Under the pieces are notes generated by a model, which worked only from the letters and a program-made list of their open reading frames with translations, was not told the DNA's origin and searched no databases. 33,574 nt of DNA from a virus: positions 1 to 33,574 of the IMG/VR virus record IMGVR_UViG_3300048838_000602. One strand, given 5' to 3'. This document shows, piece after piece, positions 6,432 to 29,016 of the stretch. Position 1 is the stretch's first letter; every line of letters starts with the position of its first letter. A program made the translations under genes and the position numbers.

Positions 6432-7616
6432 ATGACCAAGGCAGCGCAGGCGAAAAGCTGGACGCTGCACGAGTGGGCGGACGGCAGCCATCGGTCGTGG
6501 CCGGAGCCAGAGGGGCCGACGTGGCTGCCGGCGCTCGGCCAGTGGGGGACGATCTCAGGCAGTACGCTCGATCTGTCGAGCGATTGGAACAGCTCGGACT
6601 ACACGACTGTCATCGCGTATTCGGGCGCGATCGTCAACACGGTCGGCGTGTATATCGGATCGACGTTCGTGTCGGGGACGTGGCATGTCATTTGCGGGCA
6701 GGGCCACAGCGACGGTTCGCGGTTCAGCGTCTACGCGTTCGGTCCGATGGAGAGCGATTCGCCCGCGTGGCACATGCTGCGCGACGCGCCGGGCTCTCCG
6801 CCGACGAATACGGCGCAGGACGGCAGCGGCAATCCGGTCGCTCGGCACACGTACAACACGCTCTGGTTCGATCCGGTCAACAACCGGATGGGATCGATCG
6901 GCGGGATAGCTCGCGCCACGGATGCCGGCACGTTCACGACTTCACATTACTTCGATTTCACCATCAGCGCGCCGATGAGCAATTCGCCGTGGGGTACGTT
7001 GTCGAGTTCCGGGTTGATCGATGGTGCGGATTTCACCGCCTATGATCCTGCGACGCACAAGGTCTGGTATCACCCATACGTCTCCGGCGCGGTCGGACTG
7101 TACGACGTGGCGAGCAATACTCACACGTCGGACACGTTCAAATCGCCTAGCTTCTCGAACCCCACCGGAGAGATGAGCGCGCTCGATACCGAGCTAGGCA
7201 TTTGGGGGATTTTCTACAACGGCGGCGTCAACTTTTTCCGGACCAACAACGGCGTCAGCAACGACTACTACGTGCCATCGACGAGCGGCACCGCGCCTAC
7301 CGGTGCGAAGAGCGTGCTATACGACCCGGTCGACAAGCGGTTCGTGGTGTGGAATGGCAATGGTCGCCAGTTGTTCTATTTGACGCCACCCGCGACGAAT
7401 CCGTACGCGGGCGGGAACGCGTGGGTGTGGTCGAGTGATACCGCGAGCGGTGACACTCCATCTGGCGCGGCGGGCACAGTGGACGCCGAGCCCGGCGAGA
7501 ACGGGACTGATACCGGAACCTACGGTCGATTTGCGCTGATCAGCGGTAGTGGCTGGCGTGCATATACGCTGCTGAACCGCGCGGGCGATCCTATCTATGC
7601 CAAACGGGTGGCGTAA
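6432..7616 (+). CDS. Propeller-like structural or accessory protein
   Basis: A 394-residue protein, 3 bp after the FnIII gene's stop. It is rich in Gly, Ser, Thr, Trp and Tyr and in short strands with regularly spaced motifs (AYDPATHKVWYHPYVSG, LYDVASNTHTS, LYDPVDKRFVVWNGNGRQLFYL), typical of a Kelch/beta-propeller fold. There is no signal peptide. The DNA is less GC-rich than neighbours, with codon choice unlike the rest of the phage and none of the CTCGAG words seen elsewhere, which suggests later acquisition. Its ATG-TAATGG junction couples it to the fibre gene (1 bp overlap). A receptor-binding or virion decoration role is likely, but this is inference. Confidence 0.7.
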   Translation: MTKAAQAKSWTLHEWADGSHRSWPEPEGPTWLPALGQWGTISGSTLDLSSDWNSSDYTTVIAYSGAIVNTVGVYIGSTFVSGTWHVICGQGHSDGSRFSVYAFGPMESDSPAWHMLRDAPGSPPTNTAQDGSGNPVARHTYNTLWFDPVNNRMGSIGGIARATDAGTFTTSHYFDFTISAPMSNSPWGTLSSSGLIDGADFTAYDPATHKVWYHPYVSGAVGLYDVASNTHTSDTFKSPSFSNPTGEMSALDTELGIWGIFYNGGVNFFRTNNGVSNDYYVPSTSGTAPTGAKSVLYDPVDKRFVVWNGNGRQLFYLTPPATNPYAGGNAWVWSSDTASGDTPSGAAGTVDAEPGENGTDTGTYGRFALISGSGWRAYTLLNRAGDPIYAKRVA

Positions 7617-9736
7617 TGGCGGTCACGGTCACCGGCACGCCAGTCGCGATCACGAGCACGTCGCAGTCGGTGACGGTGCCGAGCGGCTGCAAGGCGGCGG
7701 TCTTCACGTGGTCGTATTACAACGCTGCCAGCGGCCACGGACTGGCGTCGGCTACACTGAACGGCGCGGCGCCTGACGCCACAGCCGAGATCGCGACGCA
7801 GATTGGCGGATCGGACGCGCCTGCAACCGGCATTGCAGTGTTTTTAAATCCGGCGTCTGGATCGCAGACGTTCGCGCATTCGTTCGATGCCGCGACCACC
7901 GAAGGACCAGCGCGAGCGCTGACGTTTCTCACCGCTGACGGTGCCATAGCAGTACGCGGCTCGTTGGGCGTCGACTCGGATTTCAGCAGCAACGCTGCGA
8001 GCGTCGCGCTCACCGGGCTGACGGCTGGCGATCTGGTCGTCGCGATGGACCAGAAGTTCGCCGCAGACCCGGCGAATCAGTCAGGCTGGACGAGCCTGCT
8101 GACAGGCAACGTCAACAACGAGCACTTCCGTGTGCGCAGCATTGCGGCCTCGGGTTCGTCGGTTACCGCAACCGCGCAGGGGCCGAACTATTCGTCGATA
8201 GCCGCCGGGGCGTTCTACGACGCGGGTGTCGCATCGCCAACGATCACTGACGTCGACACCGACGAGATCGTGCTCGACGGTCAGACGAGTGTAGCCGTCA
8301 CCGGTACGGCGATGGGCACCACGAACGCGGATCGCGCGTTCACACTGCGACAAGCCAGCACGTCGGTCCCGCAGACCGAGACCGGCACCGGCACCGCGAC
8401 CGCTGCGACGCTGACGATTGTCACGGAACAGAGTGGCGCGGACATCAAGTTCGGCGCGGCGACGCTACGAGCGACGCGCACGAGCGACAGCGCCTTCGGC
8501 GAGTTGGCCATCACGGTCAACCCGCCGAGCGGCCAGCTCTACGTCGACGTCGGCACGCCGAACGCCACCGCTGCGAATCGCATCACGGCCGTCGCGGATA
8601 TCGCTAGCGGCGATCAGATTCAGTATCGCGGTGTGGGTGGTGGATCAGCGCCGACTGGGCTGACGATCAACACCGACGCGACGTGGCAGTTCAGCTCCGG
8701 CAACACGCCGGCCTCGTTCGATGTGCGGGTGTGGGACGCCTCGGACGCGACCTGGGGCGCGTGGGCGACGCAGAGCGTTGGCGCCATCAGCCTGACCGTC
8801 AATGACGCGACGCATGGTCACGCCGTTGATGCGCCGGCGCTGAGCCAGGCGAATACGCTCACGTCGAACGATGGCCTGCACGGGCACGCGGCCGACAGCC
8901 CGAGTCTCACCCAGGGCCACGTGCTGAGCTCGAACGAGGCGACGCACGGGCACGCCGTTGAGAGCCCGACGCTCACGCAGGCGACGGTGCTGTCCGCCGA
9001 CGAGGCCGCGCATGGCCATACAGCTGACTCGCCCGCGCTGGCCCAGGCGAATGTGCTCACGGCCCACGATGCCACGCACGCCCATCTGGCCGATGTGCTG
9101 GATCTGATTCAGGCGAACGTGCTCGAGGTCGACGACGCCCTGCACGCGCAGCTCGCGGACTCGCCGACGCTGCTCGCCGGTTTCGCCCTGTCGGTGAGCG
9201 AGGCGACGCACGGGCACCTGGCCGAGAGCGTCTCGCTGATCCAGGCGCGCACGCTGAGCGTGGACGAGGCTGCCCACGCGACCTCTGCGGACAGCCCGAC
9301 CCTGTCGACCGAGCTGAACCTCGCGGTGGCGGACTCGAGCCACGGCCACGCTGCTGATGCGGTGACGCTGATCCAGGCGCACGTCCTCGACATGGACGAT
9401 GCGACGCACGGCCACACGGTAGAGCAGGTCGCGCTGAGCTTTGGCTTTACGGTGACGGTGGCCGATGCGCTGCATGCGCAGCTCGCCGACAGCCCGACGC
9501 TCACGGTGGGCTACGTCCTGGCAGTGGCCTCGGCCCTGCACCTGCATGAGGCCGGGGTCGTGGATCTCACGCAGGCCGGGACGCTGATCGTCTCGGACGC
9601 CCTGCATGCGCACCTGGCCGACACGGTGGCGCTGCGCCGGCCAGGCGCGGTCGACGCGGAGACGGTGTTCGTCGTGAGAAGCCAGCAGCGCACCTACATC
9701 GTCGCGAGCGCCACACGCATCCACACGGTTCATTGA
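7616..9736 (+). CDS. Large fibre-like protein with 13 HxH repeats
   Basis: A 706-residue protein in three parts. Residues 1 to about 205 form a beta-rich head (VPSGCKAAVFTWSYYNAAS), probably a jelly-roll. Residues of about 206-390 contain two beta-sandwich-like segments (SPTITDVDTDEIVLDGQ and GQLYVDVGTPNAT). Residues 393 to about 678 are 13 tandem 22-residue repeats, each with Leu-x-Val-x-Asp-Ala, His-Gly-His and Ala-Asp-Ser-Pro positions. HxH motifs in T4 gp37 and related needles bind iron along a trimer axis, so this looks like a long metal-stapled fibre. The tail ends VVRSQQRTYIVASATRIHTVH. The head is low in GC, the repeats high. The fibre role is inferred from architecture and late-operon placement. 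Confidence 0.78.
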   Translation: MAVTVTGTPVAITSTSQSVTVPSGCKAAVFTWSYYNAASGHGLASATLNGAAPDATAEIATQIGGSDAPATGIAVFLNPASGSQTFAHSFDAATTEGPARALTFLTADGAIAVRGSLGVDSDFSSNAASVALTGLTAGDLVVAMDQKFAADPANQSGWTSLLTGNVNNEHFRVRSIAASGSSVTATAQGPNYSSIAAGAFYDAGVASPTITDVDTDEIVLDGQTSVAVTGTAMGTTNADRAFTLRQASTSVPQTETGTGTATAATLTIVTEQSGADIKFGAATLRATRTSDSAFGELAITVNPPSGQLYVDVGTPNATAANRITAVADIASGDQIQYRGVGGGSAPTGLTINTDATWQFSSGNTPASFDVRVWDASDATWGAWATQSVGAISLTVNDATHGHAVDAPALSQANTLTSNDGLHGHAADSPSLTQGHVLSSNEATHGHAVESPTLTQATVLSADEAAHGHTADSPALAQANVLTAHDATHAHLADVLDLIQANVLEVDDALHAQLADSPTLLAGFALSVSEATHGHLAESVSLIQARTLSVDEAAHATSADSPTLSTELNLAVADSSHGHAADAVTLIQAHVLDMDDATHGHTVEQVALSFGFTVTVADALHAQLADSPTLTVGYVLAVASALHLHEAGVVDLTQAGTLIVSDALHAHLADTVALRRPGAVDAETVFVVRSQQRTYIVASATRIHTVH
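8792..9649 (+). repeat. Thirteen tandem 66-bp (22-residue) coding repeats
   Basis: The repeats keep an exact 66 bp period with no indels. At each period a Leu is followed by Asp/Glu-Ala, then His-x-His (mostly HGH, some HAH, HAQ, HAT, HLH), then Ala-Asp/Glu-Ser-Pro and Leu-x-Gln-Ala. DNA identity between copies is moderate, so the array is old or under purifying selection, unlike a recent slippage array. Copies 6, 8 and 11 have lost the second His. Confidence 0.92.
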
Positions 9737-9745
9737 GGCACCAGC

Positions 9746-9964
9746 ATGAAGACGATCGAGATCCTCTCAGACATCCGCGACGCGAGCGGCGTCTACTTCA
9801 AGGGCGAGACGCGCGTCGTGCCAGTGGAGATCGCGCACTACTTCGCGATGCAGGGCTGGGCTCGCGCCGCTGATCTGCCCGCCGGCACGCCTGACCTGTC
9901 CCCCAAAACCCTCGCCGTGGATGCGGGCCGGCACGGCCACGCCGCGACCAACCCCTCGGAGTAA
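9746..9964 (+). CDS. Small virion-associated protein ending in an HxH-repeat remnant
   Basis: A 72-residue protein 9 bp after the fibre gene. Residues of about 15-40 (VYFKGETRVVPVEIAHYFAMQGWARAA) match a short domain found at the end of several phage structural proteins, with Gly-Glu, Val-Pro and a helix ending in GWA. The last 20 residues (LAVDAGRHGHAATNPSE) copy the consensus of the fibre repeat, Leu-x-Val-Asp-Ala followed by HGHAA. This suggests it was once joined to the fibre or that the repeat acts as a portable trimer tag. Function unknown. Confidence 0.7.
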   Translation: MKTIEILSDIRDASGVYFKGETRVVPVEIAHYFAMQGWARAADLPAGTPDLSPKTLAVDAGRHGHAATNPSE

Positions 9965-9970
9965 GAGCAC

Positions 9971-10336
9971 ATGGGCAAAGCAACCCCGGACGCCATTCTC
10001 GACGCGATGGCCGACGCCATCATCGCCGCCGCGACCACGCTGTACGTGTGCTCGACCGAGCCGGCCAACTTCGCCGGTATCGCCGCAGTCGCACTCGCCG
10101 ATGTGGCGATCGACTCGGGTGATTTCACCAAGGGCAATGGTGACGTCTCGGGCCGCAAGGTCACGATCGGGCAGCAGTCGAACGTCCCGATTGACGTCAG
10201 CGGCACCGCGGGCCACATCGTGCTCGCGAGCGCCAGCGTCCTGCTCTACGTGACCACCTGCGGTTCGCAGGCGCTGACGAACGGTGGCACGGTCACGGTG
10301 CCGGCGTTCGACATCGAAGTGGCCGACCCAACCTGA
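9971..10336 (+). CDS. Small virion protein of unknown function
   Basis: A 121-residue protein, starting MGKATPDAILDAMADAI with AGAG upstream. An N-terminal helix is followed by alternating strands and short acidic turns (TLYVCSTEPANFA, VTIGQQSNVPIDV, HIVLASASVLLYVTTC, GTVTVPAFDIEVADP), giving a compact beta-sandwich. Similar short proteins lie next to fibre and head genes in other siphoviruses, but I cannot name the family. Its place between fibre and gpZ-like genes suggests a virion part. Confidence 0.7.
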   Translation: MGKATPDAILDAMADAIIAAATTLYVCSTEPANFAGIAAVALADVAIDSGDFTKGNGDVSGRKVTIGQQSNVPIDVSGTAGHIVLASASVLLYVTTCGSQALTNGGTVTVPAFDIEVADPT

Positions 10337-10343
10337 TTCGGCC

Positions 10344-10865
10344 ATGGCCGACTGCTATCCGCTCCTGACCGTTTGCCAGCGCCTGAACGCGCGGCTGCGC
10401 TACGGATTCGACTGGACGCGCGACTTTGCGCGTCGGCGCGAGCCTGGCAAACCGCATCCGCTCGGCACTCGCATCCGCATCACCGAGCTCGGCAGGCGGG
10501 ACACCGGCCTCGAGTACGAGAGCTCGGGCGGCACCTCGAACGGCCTCGATAACGCGAAGATCGCCTGGCCGACGGCACCAGGCGGGACTGTCGTCGACGG
10601 CACGATCACCTGGACGGCCCATGCGCTGAGCGCTGCGAGTCTCACCGAGGAGATCACCTCGAGCACGTGGGCGGCGCCCGTGGGCAGCGGAATCGTGGTC
10701 GATGGCGAGGTGCTCGACAATGATCCCGGCCTGCAGCGCACGCTGGCGTTCATGGACACCACCGGCGCCGAGTCCGGGCAGACCTACGATGTCGTGAACA
10801 CCGTCGTGACCTTGCCCGACACCGCGCGGTACGAGGCGGTAGTCCGGATCACGGTCGATCCCTGA
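10344..10865 (+). CDS. Hypothetical structural protein
   Basis: A 173-residue protein; the ATG at 10344 is chosen over an in-frame start 60 bp earlier inside the previous gene. The N-terminal 45 residues are basic (CQRLNARLRYGFDWTRDFARRREPG); the rest is beta-rich (GTRIRITELGRRDTGLEYESSGG, GTVVDGTITWTAHAL, EITSSTWAAP) and ends YEAVVRITVDP. Its TGATG junction overlaps the next gene's ATG. It could be a tail or neck accessory protein; no family is recognised. Confidence 0.68.
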   Translation: MADCYPLLTVCQRLNARLRYGFDWTRDFARRREPGKPHPLGTRIRITELGRRDTGLEYESSGGTSNGLDNAKIAWPTAPGGTVVDGTITWTAHALSAASLTEEITSSTWAAPVGSGIVVDGEVLDNDPGLQRTLAFMDTTGAESGQTYDVVNTVVTLPDTARYEAVVRITVDP

Positions 10866-11641
10866 TGTTCCGCGTCCGCCTGGATGCGAGCTCGCTGATA
10901 CGCGAGTTCACCGATATCGAGAAGCGCCAGCTCCCGTACGCCACGATGCGCGCGCTGAACGATGCCGCATACCAGACGCGCCAGGCGTGGCGGGATGCCA
11001 TGCCGAAGGTGTTCGATCGCCCGACCAGGATGACGCTGAACGCCATCCTGTACAGGAAGGCCACGAAGGACCGGGTGTATGCCGAGGTCTTCGTGCGGGA
11101 CTACGCTCTCAAGGGCACGCCCCCAGCAACCTACTTGCTGAGCAACGTCATAGGTGGTCAGCGCGGCCAGAAGCCCTATGAGCGCTTGCTGCGCGATCGG
11201 CCGGGTGTGCTAGGACCCGGCGAGTACACCGTGCCGGGCAAAGGCATAGAACTTGATCAGTACGGTAACGTACGCGCTGGCATTATCAACGCCATGCTTT
11301 CGGACCTGGCCGCGCGGCGAGATCCGAAACAGAACGCGACGCCGAGGAGTCGCCACAGGCGGCAGCGCCGGGGAGACATCGCGAAGCGATCCATTTACTT
11401 CTATAGCGCTGGCCCAGCGGCTGATCGTGGAGATGGCCGGCCACAGCATTTGCCGCGCGGCATCTACCGGCGCACGCGCACGGGCTTCGGCAGTTCACTG
11501 AATTCGGCGCTGCGCATCGTCAACGCCGCACGTTATAAGCCGAGCTATCCAGTGTTCGATCTGGCCGAGCAGATCTTCCGCGCTCGCTTCGCTGCGCTGT
11601 TCGAGGCACACATGACGCTAGCGACGGCGGGAAGGCTATGA
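10865..11641 (+). CDS. gpZ-like minor tail / tail-completion protein
   Basis: A 258-residue protein overlapping the previous stop by 1 bp. The opening (LIREFTDIEKRQLPYATMRALNDAAYQTRQAWRDAMPKVFDRPTRMTLNAI) fits the pattern of lambda gpZ-type minor tail proteins, in which a helical N-terminus precedes a beta-rich, very basic centre (PRSRHRRQRRGD) and a C-terminal helix (YPVFDLAEQIFRARFAALFEAHM). Lambda Z lies between FII and U. Here the matching place is held by another gene, and this one lies just before the terminase genes. The family call rests on pattern rather than a clear signature. Confidence 0.6.
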   Translation: MFRVRLDASSLIREFTDIEKRQLPYATMRALNDAAYQTRQAWRDAMPKVFDRPTRMTLNAILYRKATKDRVYAEVFVRDYALKGTPPATYLLSNVIGGQRGQKPYERLLRDRPGVLGPGEYTVPGKGIELDQYGNVRAGIINAMLSDLAARRDPKQNATPRSRHRRQRRGDIAKRSIYFYSAGPAADRGDGRPQHLPRGIYRRTRTGFGSSLNSALRIVNAARYKPSYPVFDLAEQIFRARFAALFEAHMTLATAGRL

Positions 11642-11747: not shown

Positions 11748-12332
11748 ATGACGCGATGGCCGCAGTGTAGCGCACGTGAGTTCGCCGAGCTCTTCGGCGT
11801 CTCGCACCAGGCGGTAAGCGAGTGGATCGACGCCGGGATGCCGTGCCGGCGGAAAAAAGCTGGCAAAGGAAGCCGGGTCACGATCGATCCGAAACTCGCC
11901 GCGCCGTGGGTTTTCTCACGGCGCCAGCCGAAAGGTTCAGAGCGCGAGCGGCTCGCGAAGGAGCAGGCCGACAAGTTCGCGATCGAAAACGCACGCGCTC
12001 GCGGCGAGATCGTACTCGTCGGCCAGATTGCGGAAGTTTTCTCAATTCTCGGCGCGGAGTTGGCGGCGCGCCACGACGCTGTGCCGGGCCGGGTAGCCAG
12101 TGAATTTGCAGGAACCACCGACGCCGCAGTCATCAGGCAGCGACTCCTCGACGAGCTCCGGGATGTCAGAGCCGCCGTTGGTGACGCAGTCACAAAGCTT
12201 GCGGAATCTTTCGGCGCCGCTGATGACGATGGGGCTGATCCTGAAGCCCCCGCCGAACCGCAGCGCGAGCGAGTGGGCAGATCAAAGCCGCGTGCTCCCG
12301 CTCGGAAGCGCCGAGCCAGGAAGGTTTCGTAG
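11748..12332 (+). CDS. Terminase small subunit (Nu1-like)
   Basis: A 194-residue protein. The first 55 residues hold a winged-helix/HTH of the Nu1 type (CSAREFAELFGVSHQAVSEWIDAGMPC, then a basic turn and VTIDPKLAAPW), which binds cos DNA and starts packaging. The middle is helical (AKEQADKFAIENARARGEIVL, LGAELAARHDAVPGRVASEF), suited to oligomerisation and large-subunit contact, and the tail is very basic (RSKPRAPARKRRARK). The ATG at 11748 is preferred over a TTG 12 bp upstream. The 3' part overlaps the large subunit in another frame by roughly 100-230 bp, depending on the start used. Confidence 0.85.
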   Translation: MTRWPQCSAREFAELFGVSHQAVSEWIDAGMPCRRKKAGKGSRVTIDPKLAAPWVFSRRQPKGSERERLAKEQADKFAIENARARGEIVLVGQIAEVFSILGAELAARHDAVPGRVASEFAGTTDAAVIRQRLLDELRDVRAAVGDAVTKLAESFGAADDDGADPEAPAEPQRERVGRSKPRAPARKRRARKVS

Positions 12333-14142
12333 TCGTCGAACCCCCTACATGCTGCCGATCATGGCGGCCTGTGAGGACCCCCGTTACAAACGGGTAGTCG
12401 TCATGTGCGGTTCGCAGATGGGCAAGACCGCCAGTCTGCTGAACCTGATCGGCAAGAAGCTCGATGATGATCCGGCGCCGATCCTCTACTTCGGCCCGAC
12501 AAAGTCGAACGTCGATGGGGTGATCGAGCCGCAGGTCGATCAGATGCTGCGCGGCTGCGACAGCCTATGGCGCAAGACGCTGCAGGGCCGCAAGGCGCAG
12601 AAGCTCGTCAAGCGCGTCGCCGGCGTGACGCTGCGACTGGCCTGGGCGGGATCGGCTACCGAGCTCGCGTCTCAGCCCGCCCATAGCGTGCTGATCGACG
12701 AGGTCGATCGCATGGAGCCGATTCCTGGCGAAGGTGACCCGGTCACCCTGGCGGAAGCGCGCATCGCGACGTATCCGGATGGGCGCCTGATCATCACGTC
12801 GACGCCGACCGAGGGAAACGTCACGTCGTCGAAGCATCCCAAGACCGGCATCGAGCATTGGGATGTGGCGGAAGCGGAGGACCTGCAGAGCCCTGTCTGG
12901 CTGCTGTGGCAGGAGGGGACCCGGTTCGAGCTGGCTGTTCCCTGTCCTGCATGTGGTGATTACTTTGTCCCGCGATTCAAGCTCCTGACCTGGCCGGAGA
13001 AGTGCACGCCGAAGCGAGCCCTGAAGGAAGCGCGCCTTGCCTGCCCTTGTTGCGGGGACCTGATCGGCGACGAACACCGTCGGAGCATGGCTGATGCCGG
13101 GGAGTTCCTGGCGCCAGGGCAGTCGATAGTGGATGGCGAGGTCTTTGGTGATCCGCCCGATTCGGACACTGCCAGTTTCTGGATATCCGGGCTGCTCTCA
13201 CCCTGGAGAAGCTTCGGGCAGCGTGCAGCGGACTGGCTGCGCGCTTCCCGATCGGGCGACCAGGAGCGCGTCCGATCGACGATCAACACGCGCTTCGGTG
13301 AACTCTACAAGGCGGGGGCCGATGCGACGCCCTGGGAAGAGGTGCGCGGGCTATGTGGAGCGTACTCGATGGGCTCGGTGCCGGCAGCAGTGCGGGCGCT
13401 CACGTGCGGTGTCGACGTCCAGAAGAACCGGCTCATCTACGTGGTGCGCGGTTGGGGCCTGCGTGGCGAGTCCTGGCTGATAGACGAGGGCGAGATCTGG
13501 GGCGAGACCGAGCAGGAGGCCGTCTGGCTCGAGCTGTCCGAACTGCTCGACCGAGACTGGGCCGGCAAGCGCATCCGCCGCATGGCGGTCGATTCGGGGT
13601 ACAGGCCGGGCGACAAATGGCGCAGGCCTGACCACCTGGTCTACTCATTCGCCTTGCAGCACAAGGCGCGGGTGATTGCGACGAAGGGTCACGACACGCT
13701 GTCGAGGCCGCTCGCGCCGTCCCTCATTGACGTGACGTTCCGCGGAAAGACGCTGAAGCAGGGCCTGCAGCTCTGGCACATGGACTCCGACTATTTCAAG
13801 TCCTGGGTGCATGGTCGCTTGCTCTGGCCGGTGGATCAGCCCGGCGCCTGGCACCTGCCGCAGGATGTCACCGACGAGTACTGCCAGCAGCTCACCGCCG
13901 AGGCGCGCGTGGTGAAACCCTCTGGCAAGTGGACCTGGGTGAAGGTGCGTCGCGAGAACCATCGCCTCGACTGCGAGGCGCTCAACGTCGCGGCTGCGCA
14001 TTCGATGGGGCTGCATCGGCTGCAGCGCAGCGTCCAGTCGCCGGCGGCAGCCACTGGTGGCGAGCAAGCAAGCGATCCGCCCGCCGCTGACCGACCGCGA
14101 CCAGTCAGAACGTTTCAACGCAAAGGGTGGTTCAGGAAATGA
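12163..14142 (+). CDS. Terminase large subunit (gpA family)
   Basis: About 659 residues from the ATG at 12163; ATGs at 12100 and 12223 are alternatives, and the conserved region begins near SASEWADQSRVLP. It has a Walker A motif, GSQMGKT (near 12411), a Walker B, VLIDEVD (near 12690), a SAT-like STPTEG, and a zinc-binding pair (CPACGDYF and CPCCGDLI). The C-terminal nuclease domain shows GVDVQKNRL, RRMAVDSGYR and a DCEALNVAAAHSMGLH end, fitting the cos-cutting endonuclease. It powers DNA packaging into the prohead by ATP hydrolysis with the Nu1-like partner. Its length matches the family. Confidence 0.95.
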   Translation: MSEPPLVTQSQSLRNLSAPLMTMGLILKPPPNRSASEWADQSRVLPLGSAEPGRFRSRRTPYMLPIMAACEDPRYKRVVVMCGSQMGKTASLLNLIGKKLDDDPAPILYFGPTKSNVDGVIEPQVDQMLRGCDSLWRKTLQGRKAQKLVKRVAGVTLRLAWAGSATELASQPAHSVLIDEVDRMEPIPGEGDPVTLAEARIATYPDGRLIITSTPTEGNVTSSKHPKTGIEHWDVAEAEDLQSPVWLLWQEGTRFELAVPCPACGDYFVPRFKLLTWPEKCTPKRALKEARLACPCCGDLIGDEHRRSMADAGEFLAPGQSIVDGEVFGDPPDSDTASFWISGLLSPWRSFGQRAADWLRASRSGDQERVRSTINTRFGELYKAGADATPWEEVRGLCGAYSMGSVPAAVRALTCGVDVQKNRLIYVVRGWGLRGESWLIDEGEIWGETEQEAVWLELSELLDRDWAGKRIRRMAVDSGYRPGDKWRRPDHLVYSFALQHKARVIATKGHDTLSRPLAPSLIDVTFRGKTLKQGLQLWHMDSDYFKSWVHGRLLWPVDQPGAWHLPQDVTDEYCQQLTAEARVVKPSGKWTWVKVRRENHRLDCEALNVAAAHSMGLHRLQRSVQSPAAATGGEQASDPPAADRPRPVRTFQRKGWFRK

Positions 14143-14360
14143 GTGGCATCACGCTGGCGCAAGCCCAGGCACAGCTCGACGCATTGCTGGCCGCGCAGGT
14201 CGGCGCCGAGCTGACCGTGCGCTTCGGTGAGCGGTCCGTGACGTACCAGTCCATGGAAGATCTACTCAAGGCGATCGACTACTGGAACAGGATGGTCACG
14301 CAGCTGCGCCGTGGCTCTCGGGTGAGCTACTCGGTCGCGGGCTTCCGGAGCTGCCGTTGA
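14139..14360 (+). CDS. gpW-like head-tail joining protein
   Basis: A 73-residue protein starting MSGITLAQAQAQLDALLAAQ, overlapping the terminase stop by 4 bp. Its shape fits gpW: an N-terminal helix, a short hairpin (LTVRFGERSVTYQS) and a second helix (MEDLLKAIDYWNRMVTQLRRG). gpW stops DNA leaking from the portal after packaging and prepares the head for the tail. The order terminase-W-portal matches lambda. Confidence 0.88.
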   Translation: MSGITLAQAQAQLDALLAAQVGAELTVRFGERSVTYQSMEDLLKAIDYWNRMVTQLRRGSRVSYSVAGFRSCR

Positions 14361-15892
14361 ACTGGTTCGATCGCTATGTGGTGGCGCCGGTGGCGCCCCG
14401 CATGGCGCTGCATCGGGCCGCCGCGCGCCGCGCGCTTAAGGCCTATTACGAGGCGGACGAGGAAAGCCGCCTGCGCAAGAAGCCGAAGGATCGGCGCTCG
14501 GGGGATGCACAGAACGAGCGCGCAAACATCGGCATGCGCGCCAGCGCGCGCCATCTCGACCAGAACTTCGACATCGCTTCGGGCGTGCTCGACATTCTTG
14601 AGACGAACATCATCGGTCGCGGTGTACAGCCCGAGCCGCAGGTGCTCCTCACGAGCGGCGAGCCGGCCACGGAGTTCAACAGCCACCTGATGCGCCTGCA
14701 CGACCTCTGGGCGCACGAACACGACGTGACGGGCCAGTTCCACCTCTACGAGGGGCAGCGCTTGATGGTGCGCTCCTGGGCGCGTGACGGAGATGTCTTC
14801 GCGCAGAAGCTCATCGGAAACGTACCTGGGCTCACCTACGGCACGGTGTTGCCATACGCGCTCGAGTACCTTGAGGCGGACTTCGTCCCGGATGACTTGA
14901 ACGATGCGAGCCGCCGCATCACCCAGGGGATCGAGCGCAACGCGTGGGGTCGTACGATCGCCTTCCACGTGCTCAAGGAGCACCCGGGCTCGACCCTGAG
15001 CTTCAAGCTCGAAGCGAAGCGCATCCCGGCCCAGTCCATGGTGCACCTGAAGCTGGTGAAGCGATTCCACCAAGCGCGCGGTGTGACGCTCTTCGCGTCG
15101 GTGCTCAACCGTTACGGCGACATCAAGGAGATCGATGAGGCGGAAAGAGTCGCCGCCAAGGTCGCCGCCTCGATGGCCGCCTACATCAAGAAGGCCACGC
15201 CAGACATGTACGAGGCGGCGGTCGATGAGATGGGCCAGCCACGGGCCCGCAACATGGAGTTCATGGCGGGCATCGTCTTCGATGACCTGCAGCCCGGCGA
15301 GGAGATCGGCACGATCGACACGCGCCGGCCGAACAATGCGCTGATCCCGTTTCGCGACTCACAACTGCGCGCGGCGGCGGCCGGAACCAAGGTCTCGTTC
15401 TCGTCCTCATCGAAGAACTACAACGGCACCTACTCGGCGCAGCGTCAGGAGCTCGTCGAGCAGTGGGGCATGTATCAGGGCCTCGGATCGAGCTTCGTAT
15501 ACCGGGTGGCCCAGCCAGTGTGGGACGGCTTTATCGACGCGGTGGTCGCCTCCGGTGCAATCGAGATCCCGCGCAACGTCGATCGGGAGACTCTCTACGA
15601 CTGCGTGCATACCGGCCCTTCGATGGTCTGGATCGATCCGGTGAAGGAGACCGAGGCGCAGGTGATGCAACTCAAGTGGGCGCTCAAGGCTCGCAGCCGA
15701 ATCATCCGCGAGCGTGGCGACAACCCGGACCAGGTCAACCGCGAGATCGAGCGCGATCGCAAGGAGCGCGAGCGCCTTGGCATCGAGTTCCTCGACCTCC
15801 AGCAAGCCGACCCGCAGCCAGAGCGTGAGGACGATCCCGACGAGGGAAATCCCGGCCAGGGCGAAAATGAAAACGGAGCCAGCAACGCATGA
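14357..15892 (+). CDS. Portal protein (lambda gpB family)
   Basis: A 511-residue protein with a TTG start (TTGA overlaps the gpW stop). It shows the lambda-type portal layout: MNWFDRYVVAPVAPRMALHRAAAR, then NERANIGMRASARHLDQNFDIASGVLDILETNIIG, a central domain with VRSWARDGDVFAQKL, and HVLKEHPGS and HLKLVKRFHQARGVTLFA segments. The C-terminus is acidic (REDDPDEGNPGQGENENGAS). It forms the dodecameric ring through which DNA is packaged and ejected. The weak TTG start and the overlap suggest that its level is set by coupling to gpW. Confidence 0.93.
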   Translation: MNWFDRYVVAPVAPRMALHRAAARRALKAYYEADEESRLRKKPKDRRSGDAQNERANIGMRASARHLDQNFDIASGVLDILETNIIGRGVQPEPQVLLTSGEPATEFNSHLMRLHDLWAHEHDVTGQFHLYEGQRLMVRSWARDGDVFAQKLIGNVPGLTYGTVLPYALEYLEADFVPDDLNDASRRITQGIERNAWGRTIAFHVLKEHPGSTLSFKLEAKRIPAQSMVHLKLVKRFHQARGVTLFASVLNRYGDIKEIDEAERVAAKVAASMAAYIKKATPDMYEAAVDEMGQPRARNMEFMAGIVFDDLQPGEEIGTIDTRRPNNALIPFRDSQLRAAAAGTKVSFSSSSKNYNGTYSAQRQELVEQWGMYQGLGSSFVYRVAQPVWDGFIDAVVASGAIEIPRNVDRETLYDCVHTGPSMVWIDPVKETEAQVMQLKWALKARSRIIRERGDNPDQVNREIERDRKERERLGIEFLDLQQADPQPEREDDPDEGNPGQGENENGASNA

Positions 15893-18018
15893 GCATCAAT
15901 GCCAACGCCGCCATGCGCGGCATCAAGATCGTGGCCCTCGCCAACAAGAAGGCGGAGATCCTGATCCACGAGCCGATCGGCGAGAACTGGTACGGCGATG
16001 GGCTCACCTCGAAGCGCTTCATCGACGAGCTCAAGGCGCTCGGTAAGGTCGACGAGATCCACGTCCGCATCAACAGTCCGGGCGGTGCGGTGTTCGATGG
16101 CATCGCCATCTACAACGCCCTGAAGGCCCACGAGGCGAAGAAGGTCGTGACCGTCGAGGGGCTCGCCGCCTCCGCGGCGTCCTTCATCGCCATGTGCGGG
16201 GACAGCATCCACATGGGGGCTGGCTCAATGATGATGGTCCACAACCCGTGGACCTTCGCCATGGGCGACGCGGACGACATGCGCGAGACCGCCGACATGC
16301 TCGACAAGGTCGGCGATTCCCTCATCGATATCTATCACCTGCGCACGAAGATCGCGCGCGACGAGATCGAGAAGCTGCTCGATGCGGAGACCTGGCTGAC
16401 CTCGGCGGAGGCTGTCGAGCGCGGATTTGCCGACACCCGGGATGAGGATGCCGAAGAGGAGGGCGAGGAAGCCTCCGCGGCCGCGCGCGCCGAGCACCTC
16501 GCCAAGTTCAAGAAGTTTTCCGAGGGCTGCCTGAAGGCGGCCACGGATGTTCCGCTGCGGGTTGCCGCAGAAATTTTCCATTCGGCCAACGCCGATGCAA
16601 CTGAGGAGACCGAGATGGCTCAGACCGTAGGAGCGTCGGCCAACCACGCCGACAAGAAGACGACCACCGACGTCGTGGACCAGCCCGAAACGAAGGCCAA
16701 GGTCGATGCGGCGGTCGCCGAGGCCCTGGCCCGCGAGGCCGCGCGCGCGGGAGAGATCCGCACGCTCTTCGCGAGCTTCCCGCAGTTCAACACGCTGCGC
16801 GATGAGTGCGTGACAGACCAGAAGGTGACGATCGATGCAGCGCGCAAGCGCCTGCTCGACGAGCTCGGCAAGGCCAGCACGCCGACCGCCGGAGATGCAA
16901 ACGTTCAGCCCGGCACCGATGCCCGCGACAAGTTCCTCGCCGGCGCCGAGGCGGCGCTGCTCGCGCGCGCCGGGATCGAGAAGCGCGAGGCGGGCAACGA
17001 GTACAACGGCATGAGCTTCGCGGACCTTGCCGCCCACGCGCTGCGGGCCCGCGGCGTGTCGGTGCGCGGCTTCACCAAGGACGCGACCGCGCGCAAGGTG
17101 CTGGCTTCGCACACCACGAGCGACTTCCCCTCGCTCCTGGCCAACACCGCCGGCAAGGTGCTGCGCAAGGCCTACGCGTTGGCGCCGGTCACCTGGAACC
17201 GCTGGTGCAAGACCGGCTCGGTGTCGGACTTCAAGCAGAACAGCCGCATCACGGTCGGTTCGTTCAGCTCGCTGGCGACCAAGATCGAGGGCGGTGAGTA
17301 CCAGCAGGGCACGATCAAGGAAGAGAAGGAAACCATCCAGGCGCTCACCAAGGGCCGCTTCCTGCAGCTCAGCCGCGAGATGATCGTGAACGATGACCTG
17401 GGCGGCTTCACCGATCGAGCCCGCAAGATGGGTCGCGCCGCGGCGCGCACCGTCGAGGCTGACGTGTACACGCTGCTCACGAGCGCCGCGGGGGCGGGTC
17501 CGACCATGTCGGATGGTGGCGCGTTCTTCAACGCGACGGCGATCACCACGGCTGGCGGTCACGCGAACCTCACCAGCTCGGGCACTGCGATCACAGTGGC
17601 GAACATCGCCATCGGCGAGGCGGCGATGATGGCGCAGAAGGACAAGGGACTGAACGACTTCGTCGTCATCCAGCCCCGCGTGCTGTTGTGCGCGCCGACG
17701 AAGAAGCAGATCGCCTGGGAAGTCGTGAACTCCCTCACGGACGTGGCGCAGAGCAATTCTGCCAAGCGAAACTACGTGCAGGCGCAGTTGAACCTCGAGG
17801 TGGTCTCGAGCCCGTACCTGTCGGGCAACCCCTGGTATCTGTTCGCGGACCCGGCGGACACCGAGGCCTTCGAGGTCGCGTTCCTGGACGGCGTGCAGGA
17901 GCCCTTCATCGACGAGGAGATCGAGTTCATGACCGATGCCCTCAACATGAAGGTGCGCCTCGACTATGGCATCGCCGCGATCGACTGGCGCGCGGGCTAC
18001 CGCAACGCCGGCGCCTGA
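15889..18018 (+). CDS. Fusion of ClpP-type prohead protease, scaffold region and major capsid protein
   Basis: A 709-residue protein overlapping the portal stop by ATGA. Residues of about 10-185 are a ClpP-like serine protease: INSPGGAVFDG, a Ser in GLAASAAS (S95), a His in MMVHNPW (H118) and an Asp in GFADT (D182) give a complete triad. Residues of about 190-400 are acidic and helical, as in a scaffold. Residues of about 405-709 match the Mu gpT-like capsid fold (GRFLQLSREMIVNDDLGGF, RAAARTVEADVYTLL). The protease should free the capsid domain and remove scaffold. An internal ATG at 16615 with GAGGAG upstream could add scaffold-capsid chains without protease. No stop or frameshift breaks the frame. 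Confidence 0.9.
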   Translation: MSINANAAMRGIKIVALANKKAEILIHEPIGENWYGDGLTSKRFIDELKALGKVDEIHVRINSPGGAVFDGIAIYNALKAHEAKKVVTVEGLAASAASFIAMCGDSIHMGAGSMMMVHNPWTFAMGDADDMRETADMLDKVGDSLIDIYHLRTKIARDEIEKLLDAETWLTSAEAVERGFADTRDEDAEEEGEEASAAARAEHLAKFKKFSEGCLKAATDVPLRVAAEIFHSANADATEETEMAQTVGASANHADKKTTTDVVDQPETKAKVDAAVAEALAREAARAGEIRTLFASFPQFNTLRDECVTDQKVTIDAARKRLLDELGKASTPTAGDANVQPGTDARDKFLAGAEAALLARAGIEKREAGNEYNGMSFADLAAHALRARGVSVRGFTKDATARKVLASHTTSDFPSLLANTAGKVLRKAYALAPVTWNRWCKTGSVSDFKQNSRITVGSFSSLATKIEGGEYQQGTIKEEKETIQALTKGRFLQLSREMIVNDDLGGFTDRARKMGRAAARTVEADVYTLLTSAAGAGPTMSDGGAFFNATAITTAGGHANLTSSGTAITVANIAIGEAAMMAQKDKGLNDFVVIQPRVLLCAPTKKQIAWEVVNSLTDVAQSNSAKRNYVQAQLNLEVVSSPYLSGNPWYLFADPADTEAFEVAFLDGVQEPFIDEEIEFMTDALNMKVRLDYGIAAIDWRAGYRNAGA
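16603..16617 (+). promoter_or_regulatory. Internal ribosome-binding site and ATG within the protease-capsid fusion
   Basis: GAGGAG (16603-16608) lies 6 bp before an in-frame ATG (16615), codon 243, with the product MAQTVGASANHADKK onward. This would give a 467-residue scaffold-capsid protein in addition to the full chain. Lambda makes Nu3 by the same means from inside C. Use of the start is inferred from the signal alone. Confidence 0.6.
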
Positions 18019-18463: not shown

Positions 18464-18781
18464 ATGTCGATCGAGCAGATCGACTCGAGGGTCAATGCGG
18501 CCTCGCTCCGAGTCTTCGGGGAGGCCGCAACCTTCGAGCAGGGTGGCAACGCTCGCGTCATATTCACCGATCAGCGTAGTGCAGTCATGCTCGGCCTTGC
18601 GCCTGCGGATGCCCCCGCGCCGGTGATCAGTCTCACGATGACCGAACTTCAGCGCCTCGGTGCGCAGGAGGGTTCGACGGTTGTGGTGCGCGGGATTTTG
18701 TACACCCTGATGGAGGGCGGCTCGGACGCCGTGGCGGATGCGGGCGGCATGGCCCACCTGCGCATCCGCCAGTACGCATGA
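18464..18781 (+). CDS. FII-like head-tail attachment protein
   Basis: A 105-residue protein starting MSIEQIDSRVNAASLRVFGEAATF. The layout, an N-terminal helix and then beta strands (ARVIFTDQRSAVMLGL, VISLTMTELQRLGAQEGSTVVVRGILYTLM), ending LRIRQYA, fits the lambda gpFII attachment family. It closes the head and makes the platform for the tail. The stop overlaps the methyltransferase-fusion gene by ATGA, so the insertion of that gene kept the operon coupled. Confidence 0.8.
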   Translation: MSIEQIDSRVNAASLRVFGEAATFEQGGNARVIFTDQRSAVMLGLAPADAPAPVISLTMTELQRLGAQEGSTVVVRGILYTLMEGGSDAVADAGGMAHLRIRQYA

Positions 18782-20055
18782 CCCGCAAGACGGAGATCGA
18801 CAAGTACAACGAGGCCTACAGCCACGACGAGTACCGGATGGGCGAGGCCCGAAAGTGGGCGGCGCTGCGCGATCTGCAGAGCCTGCGCGGCGGCTCGCTG
18901 CTCGACGTCGGCTGCGGGCGCGGCGAGGTGCTCGAGCTCGCCCGCGACCTGGGCTTCGAGCCGGTGCAGGGCACGGAGGTCGTGCCGGCGCTGCTGGGCG
19001 AGGGGGTGCGCTACGCCGAGGCGCACGAGCTGCCCTTTGCCGACGGCGCGTTCGATCACGTGACCTGCTTCGACGTGCTCGAGCACTTGCTGCCCGAGGA
19101 CACCGAGGCCGCGCTGCGCGAGCTCGCGCGGGTGGCGGCGAAAACGGTCACGATCACGGTGGCCGACTACCCGCACGTGTTTCGGGGCGTCGACCTGCAC
19201 GTGAACCGCCGCAGCTACCCCGAGTGGGCGCAGCTGCTCATGCAGGTCTTCGGGCACTCGCGGGCGCGCTGCCTCGGCATGGCCGGCGCCTCGCAGGCCT
19301 GGCGCATCACGCTCGAGGCGCAAAAGCGCAGCCCGATGAAGCGCCTGCGCCGGCCCGAGCCTGCGCGGCGCGCGGATTTCGAGGCGACGCTGCGCGGCCG
19401 CCATCGCGGCGCGACCTTCATCGTGCTGGGCGGTGGCTCGTCCCTGGCCGCGCAGATGGCCGGCGCGCCGCCGGCGCTGCGCATCAGCGCCAACGAGCAC
19501 GGGTGCCTGTGGGGGCCGTGTGATTACGTTTCGGCGATGGATGACATCGCGGACAAGGTGCGCGCCTTCGGCATTCCGGTGATCGGACGCGACCCGAACA
19601 CCTGCGACTACCTCGCGCAGCCGTTTCCGAACGTGCGCTGGACCGGCACGCAGGCCGTGTACCACGCCTACGTGATGGGCGCGCACCTGGTGCTGCTCGC
19701 CGGCATGGACCTCTACCAGGATCTGCCGGAAGGCACGCCGGGCGGTCGGCGCACGCCGCTCGAGACGCACCTCGAGGCCTGGCAGGTGATCAAGGACACG
19801 CTGCCGGTCCCGGTGAGGGCCCTCGGTGGGCCCCTCGTCGACGTCTTCGGCCTGTATGACCCGGCCGAGGTCGTGCCGGCGCCGGGCGTGCTGCCGCGCA
19901 TCGAGCCGGTGAACACGGTCGAGACCTGCCTCGTGCGCACGCTCGCCGGCGGCGCGCTGCTCGGCCGGCGCTACGTCGCGGGCCAGCGCCTGTGGATCCG
20001 ACCTGACGAGCTGCGCGCGGCCGCGGCCGCGGGCCTGGTGGAGAGTCTATCGTGA
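18778..20055 (+). CDS. SAM-dependent methyltransferase fused to a DUF115/GT42-like domain
   Basis: A 425-residue protein. Residues of about 25-185 are a class I methyltransferase: motif I LLDVGCGRGE (41-50), and CFDVLEHLLP (97-106) typical of the methyltransferase-11 group. Residues of about 210-365 look like a second Rossmann domain: FIVLGGGSSLA (214-224), RISANEHG and CDYVSAMDD (235-256), and TGTQAVYHAYVMGAHLVLLAGMDLY (289-313), the pattern of DUF115 and GT42 sialyltransferase-like proteins. Residues of about 396-425 (RRYVAGQRLWIRPDELRAAAAAGLVE) resemble a short domain seen on phage virion proteins. It lies between FII-like and tail-terminator genes. A role in modifying a virion protein, glycan or nucleotide is inferred; the substrate is unknown. 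Confidence 0.72.
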   Translation: MTRKTEIDKYNEAYSHDEYRMGEARKWAALRDLQSLRGGSLLDVGCGRGEVLELARDLGFEPVQGTEVVPALLGEGVRYAEAHELPFADGAFDHVTCFDVLEHLLPEDTEAALRELARVAAKTVTITVADYPHVFRGVDLHVNRRSYPEWAQLLMQVFGHSRARCLGMAGASQAWRITLEAQKRSPMKRLRRPEPARRADFEATLRGRHRGATFIVLGGGSSLAAQMAGAPPALRISANEHGCLWGPCDYVSAMDDIADKVRAFGIPVIGRDPNTCDYLAQPFPNVRWTGTQAVYHAYVMGAHLVLLAGMDLYQDLPEGTPGGRRTPLETHLEAWQVIKDTLPVPVRALGGPLVDVFGLYDPAEVVPAPGVLPRIEPVNTVETCLVRTLAGGALLGRRYVAGQRLWIRPDELRAAAAAGLVESLS

Positions 20056-25341: not shown

Positions 25342-26259
25342 ATGGCTCACGTCACCGGCTCGGCCGGCAGCATCTCGGCGCTGATGTCGTCGATTCGCTC
25401 GGCTTGCACGGGCAACGGCTGGACGCTCTCTGGCAATGTCCTGCACAAGGGCGATGTCCACATCGAGACGACCGTGGTCGATGAGACGATTTGCTTCCTC
25501 GGCGGCACGGGGGTCGATGGTGGCAACAACCTGACCGGCCCCGGTCCTTCGGTCGTTCGGGTCGCCTTCAATCTCGCCAGCATCACCGTCTCGTACCCGG
25601 TGACCTACGAGTTGCACATCAACACCTCGCCGGACGAGGTGTACGTGGTCGTGAACTACAACACCAACGACTTCCAGTGGGCGGCGTGGGGGCAGTCCGA
25701 CATCGCGGATATCGGTGGGACCGGCGTCTGGTATGCGGCGGCGTGCAACAACCTGCCGGGGCCAACCGGGCAGTGGATCGGGGGCCCGAACGGCGCCAAC
25801 ACCGGCAACCAGACGCTCATGCATGGGCTGTTCTACAACACGACGTCCTTTACCGGCGCGCCGCTCAACAGCATTAATTCGTTCATCCATAACGGCATCG
25901 ACGCTGTGGGGTGGACGCCGCCGAATGGCTCAACGCCGACGGCCTGGGCGTGGTCGGCGGTTGCGCCGCTGCTGAATCTCTTGCCGAACACGTGGAACGA
26001 CCAGACGGTCCTGCTGCCGATGCCGGTGTTCAAACCGCGCAGCTCGGGCAACAAGGTCAGCTTGCTGGCCGATCTTCGCCACGTGCGCCTGTGCCGGGTC
26101 GACTACCACAACCCCGGGGACATCATCACCCTGGGTACAGATCAGTGGAAGCTGTACCCCTGGTACCGCAAGAACACCGCAGGCCGAAACGGAAGCAGCG
26201 GGTCGCCGATTACGCACTCCGGCACGATGGGCTTCGCGGTGCGTTACACGGGGTCCTGA
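25342..26259 (+). CDS. Distal-tail or fibre-associated virion protein, family B
   Basis: A 305-residue protein, 10 bp after the previous gene. The start (SISALMSSIRSACTGNGWTLSGNVLHKGDVHIET) is built like that of the preceding protein, a helix then a GW-T strand, so the two may be distant paralogues. The rest is beta-rich (VTYELHINTSPDEVYVVVNYNTNDFQWAAWG) and ends FAVRYTGS. It is likely part of the tail tip, by position and likeness. The function is not known. Confidence 0.72.
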   Translation: MAHVTGSAGSISALMSSIRSACTGNGWTLSGNVLHKGDVHIETTVVDETICFLGGTGVDGGNNLTGPGPSVVRVAFNLASITVSYPVTYELHINTSPDEVYVVVNYNTNDFQWAAWGQSDIADIGGTGVWYAAACNNLPGPTGQWIGGPNGANTGNQTLMHGLFYNTTSFTGAPLNSINSFIHNGIDAVGWTPPNGSTPTAWAWSAVAPLLNLLPNTWNDQTVLLPMPVFKPRSSGNKVSLLADLRHVRLCRVDYHNPGDIITLGTDQWKLYPWYRKNTAGRNGSSGSPITHSGTMGFAVRYTGS

Positions 26260-26261
26260 TC

Positions 26262-27971: not shown

Positions 27972-28783
27972 CGTTCGATGCGCGCGAGAGCAGCCTCGAG
28001 CTCGGCCAGCCGGTGCGGCTCTACGAGTTCCACCGCGGGGTCTACCGCTGGCGCTACACCGACTCGGACCGCGTGCAGACCTACCTGTTCCAGGACTTCG
28101 AGCCCGCGCCGATCTCCGACGACGGCGTGCGCCAGTCCGAGCAGTCGGGCGCCGATGCGCTCACGGTGACGGCGCCCTTCGACCTGCCCGTCGCTCAGCT
28201 CTACCGCGGAGCGCCGCCGGCCGAGGAGGTGGGGCTCATCGTGCGCGACATGCACTATGGCGACGCCGAGGCGCCAATCCGCTTCCTGGGCGCGATCGAG
28301 GGCGTGCGCTGGCCCTCGCCGGAGCGGGCAATGCTCACCTGCAGGTCGCTCGCGGCGTCGCTCAAGCGCGCCGGCCTGCGCCTCGCCTGGGAGCGAGGCT
28401 GCACGCACTCGCTCTATGACCGCAACTGCACGGTCGACCGCAACAGCTTCGCCACCCCCGGCGCCGTGACCACGAAGACGGGCACGACGATCGAGGCGGC
28501 CGCGTGGGATGCCCTGGCCGACGGCTACTTCTCCGGCGGTTACGTTGAGTGGGATGTGGGCCTCGGCGGCACCGACCGGCGCGGCATCGAGGGGCACGTC
28601 GGAGGCGTGCTCACGCTGCTCGGGGGCACAGACGGGATCGACGTCGGCATGACCGTGACGGCCTACGCCGGCTGTGCGCGCACGATCAGCGTCTGTACGT
28701 CGAAGTTCTCGAACTCGGATAACTACGGCGGCATCCCGCACATGCCGGGCAAGTCACCCTTTGACGGCACACCGGTGTTCTGA
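27968..28783 (+). CDS. DUF2163/BR0599-type tail hub protein with four conserved Cys
   Basis: A 271-residue protein overlapping the previous stop by ATGA. It has the DUF2163 start (MTFDARESSLELGQPVRLYEFHRG) and the BR0599 end, CARTISVCTSKFSNSDNYGGIPHMPG. Cys145 and Cys154 (ERGCTHSLYDRNC) and Cys236 and Cys243 (GCARTISVC) form the four-Cys set that in lambda gpL and gene transfer agent hub proteins holds an iron-sulfur cluster. It should form the trimeric hub at the tail tip beneath the distal ring. The cluster is inferred from the family, not seen. Confidence 0.86.
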   Translation: MTFDARESSLELGQPVRLYEFHRGVYRWRYTDSDRVQTYLFQDFEPAPISDDGVRQSEQSGADALTVTAPFDLPVAQLYRGAPPAEEVGLIVRDMHYGDAEAPIRFLGAIEGVRWPSPERAMLTCRSLAASLKRAGLRLAWERGCTHSLYDRNCTVDRNSFATPGAVTTKTGTTIEAAAWDALADGYFSGGYVEWDVGLGGTDRRGIEGHVGGVLTLLGGTDGIDVGMTVTAYAGCARTISVCTSKFSNSDNYGGIPHMPGKSPFDGTPVF

Positions 28784-28785
28784 CC

Positions 28786-29016
28786 ATGTGGTTCAACCTC
28801 TTCATCCTGGTTGCGTCCTACGTGATCTCGGCGGCGCTGGCGCCGAAGCCGCAGAAACCAAAGCCCGCGGCGTTCGATGACATCGAGTTCCCGCAGTTCG
28901 AGGAGGGCACGCCGCAGGAGGTCATCTTCGGCGACGTGTGGACGGAGTCCTGGATGGTGCTCGGCGTCGGCAACTACCGCACCGAGGCGATCCGCGCCAA
29001 GGGCGGCAAGAAATGA
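28786..29016 (+). CDS. Small tail-tip protein with hydrophobic N-terminus
   Basis: A 76-residue protein 2 bp after the hub gene. An N-terminal hydrophobic stretch (MWFNLFILVASYVISAAL) is followed by PKPQKPKP, then a segment (FEEGTPQEVIFGDVWTESWMVLGVGNY) like the start of gpJ-type proteins in which EGTP and FG are conserved. In this position it resembles the small genes between L and J. It may be a membrane-active or ejected part; function is not known. Confidence 0.75.
   Translation: MWFNLFILVASYVISAALAPKPQKPKPAAFDDIEFPQFEEGTPQEVIFGDVWTESWMVLGVGNYRTEAIRAKGGKK

Follow-up and report, generated by a model that had tools for sequence, protein, structure and literature searches.

A putative phage appendage shaft built of 22-residue repeats, its linked partner gene, and the exchange of HxH for other residue pairs among related arrays

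A gene at positions 7616-9736 of a virus record of 33,574 bases (IMGVR_UViG_3300048838_000602; the whole stretch is referred to here as the window) encodes a protein with 13 repeats of 22 residues, most of which carry a histidine–any residue–histidine (HxH) motif. In related phages the same repeat occurs beside the same small partner gene, located downstream at 9971-10336 in the window, whereas the HxH pair is often replaced through whole arrays by other residues. The interpretation favoured here, to which a probability of about 0.5 is assigned, is of an appendage shaft with an exchangeable buried core strand, anchored via the product of 9971-10336. The protein would form a rod-like virion appendage (whether neck whisker, head fibre or side fibre) in a phage with a long tail. 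A variable N-terminal module, sugar-binding or enzymatic in some relatives, would be borne on a shaft made up of 22-residue units, and the 121-residue partner would help to fix the appendage to the virion. Each unit would provide hydrophobic residues at Leu1, Val3 and Leu17, together with a strand at 8-12 in which residues 8, 10 and 12 face the same way, are buried and meet their like. This inner line could be composed of His, Gln, Leu/Ile, Phe/Tyr or Ser/Asn, with a tendency to one type per array, and in the present phage would be His-x-His for the most part, three copies having Gln or Thr at position 10 instead. The fold would most likely be a parallel beta-solenoid with His inside and no need of metal. 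A broader proposal, that the cassette is widespread and that whole arrays have switched many times among His, Gln, Leu, Tyr/Phe and Ser/Asn on the same frame and anchor, is advanced tentatively, and is judged somewhat likelier to be wrong than right. The cassette was not found described among the papers listed in searches on 22-residue repeats in phage or on HxH. The features on which the argument depends are as follows.

7616-9736, plus strand: candidate appendage (fibre- or whisker-like) protein of 706 residues, consisting of an N-terminal part, a 13-copy shaft and a short C-terminal tail (from the open frame and its translation).
7616-8791, plus strand: N-terminal 392 residues, without a family in Pfam and PHROG scans.
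8792-9649, plus strand: 13 exact 22-residue repeats, consensus LxVxDAxHxHxADxxxLTQxxx, with HxH in 10 of 13.
9650-9733, plus strand: C-terminal tail of 28 residues, modelled with low confidence in the array model.
9971-10336, plus strand: partner gene, 121 residues, proposed anchor or adaptor (from linkage and fold resemblance).

Residues 393-678 of the protein divide into 13 units, each of exactly 22 residues and free of insertions or deletions, and the exact period of 66 base pairs (bp) that a preliminary description of this DNA had placed at 8792-9649 was confirmed by this division of the frame and by shuffling. Self-identity was 0.386 at an offset of 22 residues and 0.406 at an offset of 44; over offsets of 5 to 60 the array matched itself at 0.446 at best, compared with no more than 0.197 in 2000 shuffles, and four HxH spaced at 66 bp, searched as a pattern, occurred twice in the window but in none of 100 shuffles. 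The motifs that the preliminary description attributed to each unit hold as a consensus, but not in every copy. His8 is present in all 13 units, His10 in 10 and HGH in seven, with Leu1 in 12, Val3 in eight, Asp5 in eight (and Glu in four), Ala6 in 11, Ala12 in 10, Asp13 in nine, and Ser14 and Pro15 in seven each. A few copies do lack the second His, as had been stated, namely copies 6, 8 and 11, which read HAQ, HAT and HAQ respectively. In a wider test, covering 731 pairs of adjacent copies, clustering of copies without His10 had little or no support (30 pairs, against 25 expected). The copies of the window have diverged to a mean pairwise identity of 43% for protein and 55% for DNA, with proportions of nonsynonymous (pN) and synonymous (pS) differences of 0.42 and 0.53, and Tandem Repeats Finder picks up only two of the 13. 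Pfam and PHROG gave no family for the protein at an E value of 0.1, searches of the PDB by sequence gave no match for the whole protein or for the repeat profile, and the plasmid sequences searched gave none either.

A first sample of related viral loci was drawn from the listed matches to two DNA patterns, one coding for D-A-x-H-G-H-x-A-D and the other for HxH four times at intervals of 66 bp. A profile search with the repeat consensus, as the preliminary description had proposed, was run with the window units and matched 74 frames in 71 loci, comprising 770 distinct units; these loci include the window and a near copy (L001, L002), Microcystis phage Mae-JY22 and a few contigs that are duplicated or nearly alike. 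The partner gene, identified by profile search, was present in 50 of the 71 repeat-bearing loci, always on the same strand, and in none of 165 other viral or 118 bacterial loci. The 21 repeat loci without a partner all end, on one side or both, about 1.5 kb or less from the repeat gene, and may merely be cut off. The converse association was examined from the partner outwards, and in a first scan the array was present in 59 of 80 loci (the best 80 of more than 300 relatives). Three such scans, each taking the best 80 of 302-357 relatives, make up the partner-anchored sample of 183 new loci (some contigs twice), 125 of them with distinct partners and with five earlier loci excluded. Array detection in this sample masked positions 8 and 10, and gave nothing in 2589 shuffled frames. 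Arrays were found at 97 of the 125 distinct partner loci, and at 64 of the 68 in which the partner is flanked by over 4 kb on either side; the sample, whose partner alignments came mainly from HxH loci, leans to relatives of HxH phages. L395, one of the four loci with full flanks and no array at threshold, had shown a weak one in an earlier pass. Additionally, a translated search of 50,697 phage records found only Microcystis phage Mae-JY22, which has both the repeat and the partner genes. The four-HxH 66-bp pattern gave at least 118 stretches in genome_contigs, none of them among the 74 frames that match the repeat profile; the DNA pattern also catches unrelated His-rich repeats, and absence from bacterial genomes is not established by those stretches. 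The shaft gene and 9971-10336 would form a compact two-gene phage appendage cassette.

Within the partner-anchored sample, HxH was present in 551 of 1090 units from 96 distinct arrays. The arrays fall into 38 with HxH in at least 80% of units, 21 between, and 37 with less than 20%; no His at position 8 or 10 was present in any unit of 22 arrays, and among the 37 low-HxH arrays nine keep His as the commonest residue at position 8. A metal ladder held by HxH pairs, as envisaged in the preliminary description, is not supported as a general principle, given these 37 and 22 of the 96 arrays. Replacement of HxH often runs through the whole array, giving QxQ (for example L365, L383, L455, L456), LxL (L498, L496, L494, L401), IxS (L469), FxY or YxY (L452, L457), SxS (L445, L443, L448), HxV (L436), and NxN and mixed states (L464, L478). 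Residues 9 and 11 are mostly small (A/G/S and T/A/S respectively), and position 12 is A, V, I or L in 87% of units. Since the rest of the repeat stays across the high, middle and low HxH classes, with Leu1 in 91, 80 and 86% of units and Leu17 in 83, 80 and 85%, HxH is, on the sequences compared, one of several states of a residue pair and not the defining feature of the shaft. An apparent retention of His8 in 98% of units in the first, HxH-fetched sample was discarded as an artefact, the partner-anchored value being 66% (720/1090), itself no estimate for a population, since the partner alignments lean to HxH loci and each scan took its best 80. A further His at unit position 21 (LTQxH) has a frequency of 32-40% irrespective of the residues at positions 8 and 10. 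Parsimony on a tree built from the partner proteins gives 22 changes of the HxH state, at least nine of them forced by well supported branches, compared with an average of 31 for shuffled labels; the state is somewhat clustered on the tree but switched often. This tree has few columns, and a swap of shaft genes from phage to phage would be scored as change too.

At positions 8, 10 and 12, units of the same array are alike and those of different arrays differ. Expressed as copy identity within arrays minus that between arrays, the uniformity index is 0.67 at position 8, 0.60 at position 10, 0.48 at position 12 and 0.37 at position 6, every other position reaching 0.30 at most. Bootstrap intervals for positions 8 (0.58-0.75) and 10 (0.52-0.66) overlap that of no position outside 8, 10 and 12, whereas the interval for position 12 (0.41-0.56) overlaps that of position 6. 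The uniformity holds also for copies separated by four units or more, and in the 47 most diverged arrays the index is still 0.60, 0.49 and 0.36 at positions 8, 10 and 12, the next value being 0.28. Because residues 8, 10 and 12 alternate along one strand, which spans 8-13 in the model described below, and can all be aliphatic, these residues, and in part residue 6, are probably buried, as judged from substitutions and not from coordinates.

Modelling of the array as a single chain with AlphaFold2, using the array and 32 relatives, gave a solenoid with coils of 22 residues, with a mean predicted local distance difference test (pLDDT) score of 72.3 and a predicted template modelling (pTM) score of 0.61. 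Strands lie at 22-4, 8-13 and 16-17 in the first units; pLDDT is 69-84 over residues 1-280, no residue reaches 90, and the model is poor from about residue 285. A parallel beta-solenoid, which would have His inside, is the most likely fold. The comparison with known right-handed beta-helix proteins (tailspikes, GH110, NosD) is two-sided: a second aligner superposed the model on CBA120 tailspike 3 (6nw9_C) with Z 21.0 and a root-mean-square deviation (rmsd) of 3.4 over 286 aligned residues, and on other beta-helix proteins at Z 16-20, values that for a repeat may mean just a common arrangement, whereas Foldseek gave no significant match. The Pfam family PF05048 (NosD) reached 27.5 bits in L177 and 23.3 bits in L191 against a cut-off of 23.6, with no single stretch passing; a scan of the window protein gave no NosD match and, these weak matches apart, the repeat is not clearly covered by any Pfam or PHROG family.

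The partner was modelled with a pLDDT of 95.4 and a pTM of 0.86. Its best structural matches are the neck of Shigella phage Sf14 (PDB 9C39, chain 9c39_K; Z 10.7, rmsd 2.6, 105 aligned) and the Bas63 connector (PDB 9MT4, chain 9mt4_L; Z 10.4, rmsd 2.6, 104 aligned), both of which Foldseek also returned with probability 1.00 and E values of 0.002-0.003; identity to the partner is 12-13%. The Sf14 neck bears two sets of whiskers held by an adapter, according to the published account (PMC11821841), and the Sf14 tail is described as contractile. Further alignments were to the tail fibres of 7-7-1 (9rkv_A; Z 8.6, rmsd 3.2, 118 aligned) and to the HFTV1 tail (Z 7.0). The fibre-tail adaptor of the short-tailed phage GP4 (8JOU, Gp77) also aligns, although at Z 6.5 (8jou_a; Foldseek E 0.41, probability 0.82), when the methyltransferase CARM1 reaches Z 6.2. 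Among predicted viral proteins the best partner match (E 1e-7) was to an uncharacterised protein of a podovirus, minor tail and tail-collar proteins ranking below it. A partner sequence profile found no relative in the PDB (two matches near E 1), and one relative of the partner weakly matches a PHROG of head or virion structural type (E 3e-4).

The surroundings of the cassette were examined by scanning 121 neighbouring proteins, of 174 first and second neighbours in the sampled loci. The commonest families among them, taken from the first 25 of 156 PHROG families and the first 25 of 38 Pfam families, are portal (up to nine members), head morphogenesis (five), terminase (four), Neck1 and head proteins, the cassette often lying near head and neck genes. 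The N-terminal parts of the relatives (70 scanned) are variable, and include a LamG lectin-like domain in seven, a GDSL lipase in one and an M14 peptidase in one. The fold matches of the partner, the neighbour families and the exchanged N-terminal modules together suggest a neck or head appendage able to carry binding or enzymatic modules, a location on the tail side also being possible, with 9971-10336 proposed as the anchor or adaptor that would contact the repeat protein. The preliminary description had proposed a metal-stapled fibre shaft; an appendage shaft is supported by the partner linkage, fold likeness, virion neighbours and exchanged N-terminal modules, whereas the metal ladder is not supported as the governing principle.

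A number of results weigh against the reading as an anchored solenoid shaft. With regard to the partner, the Foldseek matches in the PDB are weak (best E 0.002) and the PDB matches are spread over neck, baseplate, fibre and tail-tip proteins; A511 gp105, the GP4 adaptor, phi812 and Bxb1, at Z 6.2-6.6, are on a level with the unrelated CARM1 (6.2). Contact between the partner and the repeat protein is putative, and a gene classed as a minor tail protein (10865-11641) adjoins the cassette, such that a place on the tail side is possible. With regard to the array, the model is of only moderate confidence, and its best Foldseek match in the PDB had an E value of 0.44. For perfect repeats AlphaFold2 has been shown to produce solenoids that are confident yet unrealistic, although four methods agreed for the Pfam families with diverged repeats that were tested (PMC11795689); given this bias towards beta-solenoids for repeats, the fold is likely but provisional. 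Neighbouring copies share the residue at position 10 no more than expected by chance (z 0.21), when a strict ladder of copy stacked on copy might have shown matching there, and this absence counts against such a ladder; neighbour sharing is weak at position 8 (z 2.2), present to some extent at position 7 (z 3.5), and little or none at most others. Finally, uniform arrays could come from amplification of a founder unit combined with constraint on single sites.

The absence of neighbour matching at position 10 would be accommodated by a trimeric beta-fibre without need of metal, in which residues 8, 10 and 12 face the three-fold axis and rings of His, Gln, Leu or Tyr are exchangeable, the axis giving contacts of like with like that do not involve stacking of copies. 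Many solved phage fibres are trimers. Even changes of unit length are also favoured among the arrays (units of 24, 20, 26 and 18 residues in 58 cases, compared with 25, 23 and 19 in 18 cases), a preference expected of hairpins, or of strands whose facing is preserved. By itself, however, a trimer gives no reason why the units of one array should share a type, and the single chain was modelled as a solenoid, albeit in a test biased in that direction; this arrangement is considered fairly unlikely.

The metal-stapled trimeric needle, in which the HxH pairs of three chains would hold one iron per unit, with ten filled and three empty sites in the window protein, is considered distinctly improbable. 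HxH is indeed the commonest state among the 1090 units, the His fractions at positions 8 and 10 covary over 102 arrays (r 0.75), and both T4 gp37 and R22Y gp12 have been reported or proposed to bind iron via HxH (PMC11705849), where the iron of R22Y gp12 is the authors' prediction and docking. Like the window protein, gp37 is a phage appendage protein with repeated HxH, but its HxH pairs are 141, 32, 14, 37, 14, 9 and 9 residues apart and thus irregular, such that the fixed spacing in the window, which the preliminary description had called longer than that in gp37, exceeds the gaps of 14 and 9 but not those of 141, 32 and 37. By profile, gp37 has no kinship to the repeat (scores below zero), and its iron-trimer architecture is only hypothetical for the window protein. 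The Alteromonas phage proteins R22Y gp12 and V19 gp4 come closer, with four HxH units each at 22-residue spacing. R22Y gp12 scored 11.4 bits with the A2 (long) profile (E 2e-5 in a search of three sequences), so that a distant tie is conceivable, and V19 scored 0.2 bits; however, both scored no more than 1.0 bit with a three-unit profile (1.0 for R22Y gp12), and the segments between their pairs are of another type (HxHxIxDIxGL). Against a needle of this kind stand, moreover, the 22 arrays of 96 that have the same repeat and partner without His at 8 or 10, the switching between HxH and other states from at least nine to 22 times on the partner tree, and the modelling of the single chain as a solenoid. 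Because a 22-residue HxH period in another fibre has been read as an iron trimer, a metal ladder is kept as possible for HxH arrays, yet it cannot explain the arrays without His; the window protein itself may or may not bind iron.

An HxH face on the outside of the solenoid, forming a regular lattice over the surface for the binding of metal, sugar or some other ligand, would be compatible with the mostly small residues at 9 and 11, which could face inwards instead, but is very improbable, given that HxH is replaced by LxL, IxL or FxL (L401, L494, L496, L498), which is unlikely for an exposed face, and that position 12 on the same face is predominantly aliphatic. A flexible low-complexity linker with no fixed fold, for which the strong divergence of the copies and the moderate model confidence might speak, is scarcely credible when Leu1, Leu17 and the spacing of 22 are kept in arrays from many phages.

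The remaining features of the window that bear on the cassette are listed here.

9746-9964, plus strand: small gene between shaft and partner.
10284-10865, plus strand: possible second adaptor, with a weak match to the GP4 fibre-tail adaptor family (Pfam Gp77; 20.6 bits, cut-off 27).
10865-11641, plus strand: gene situated between cassette and terminase, with a PHROG 1924 match (E 4e-61) annotated 'minor tail protein'.
12100-18018, plus strand: head module adjoining the cassette, comprising terminase large subunit, portal, and fused head protease and major capsid protein (Pfam, PHROG).

The terminase is of the gpA type, the portal is lambda-type, and the window also encodes a major tail protein with an Ig-like domain, a tape-measure protein, tail assembly and tail proteins, and an endolysin. 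The phage is taken to be long-tailed because of this set of terminase, portal, tail and tape-measure genes; no sheath gene was present among the window proteins scanned, which were a subset of the genes. The terminase gene is situated downstream of the repeat gene, whose distance from the genes for tail assembly and tail proteins (25911-31383) is 16-20 kb; the start of the repeat gene overlaps the stop of 6432-7616 as TAATG. The latter gene encodes 394 residues, has no Pfam or PHROG family, and has no relative in the other repeat loci at an E value of 1e-4. The small gene at 9746-9964 has a single relative among the other repeat loci (L129, E 7e-13), which likewise lies directly upstream of the partner. 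Its end, at 9911-9958, reads LAVDAGRHGHAATNPS, which resembles repeat positions 1-16 and includes HGH; this half repeat is probably due to chance, the L129 relative ending without such a stretch. A protein of 425 residues encoded at 18778-20055, between the head and tail genes, has weak matches to phage methyltransferases (best E 0.0005).

Variations on the array were also seen in individual relatives. In three arrays in which His pairs are nearly or wholly absent (L464, L478, L463), unlike 22-residue units alternate, by eye in threes, giving a possible super-repeat of 66 residues. One locus (L191, 2643-7977) has three separate repeat frames, two of which have just two units near their end. 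The C-terminal tails of four proteins (L408, L398, L464, L371) have a second short repeat of about 9-10 residues (R-x-hydrophobic-x-hydrophobic); at least two matches to this motif were present in 14 of 90 arrays with complete ends, compared with five of 2000 random stretches, the window tail having one.

If the reading as an appendage shaft with an exchangeable core strand is correct, a rod of the HxH form might respond to pH or metal, whereas rods of the Leu and Tyr forms would be fixed, and the series of arrays would serve as an experiment set by nature in how a repeat shaft is held together. HxH has been equated with bound iron in phage fibres, a relation used in work on marine iron cycling (PMC11705849). 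A shaft repeat of constant length and frame in which the inner residues are swapped as a set would provide a natural test of what stabilises beta-fibres and of whether HxH means bound iron. The two-gene cassette would, in addition, give a marker by which such appendages may be recognised, each scan of viral contigs with the partner having returned more than 300 relatives.

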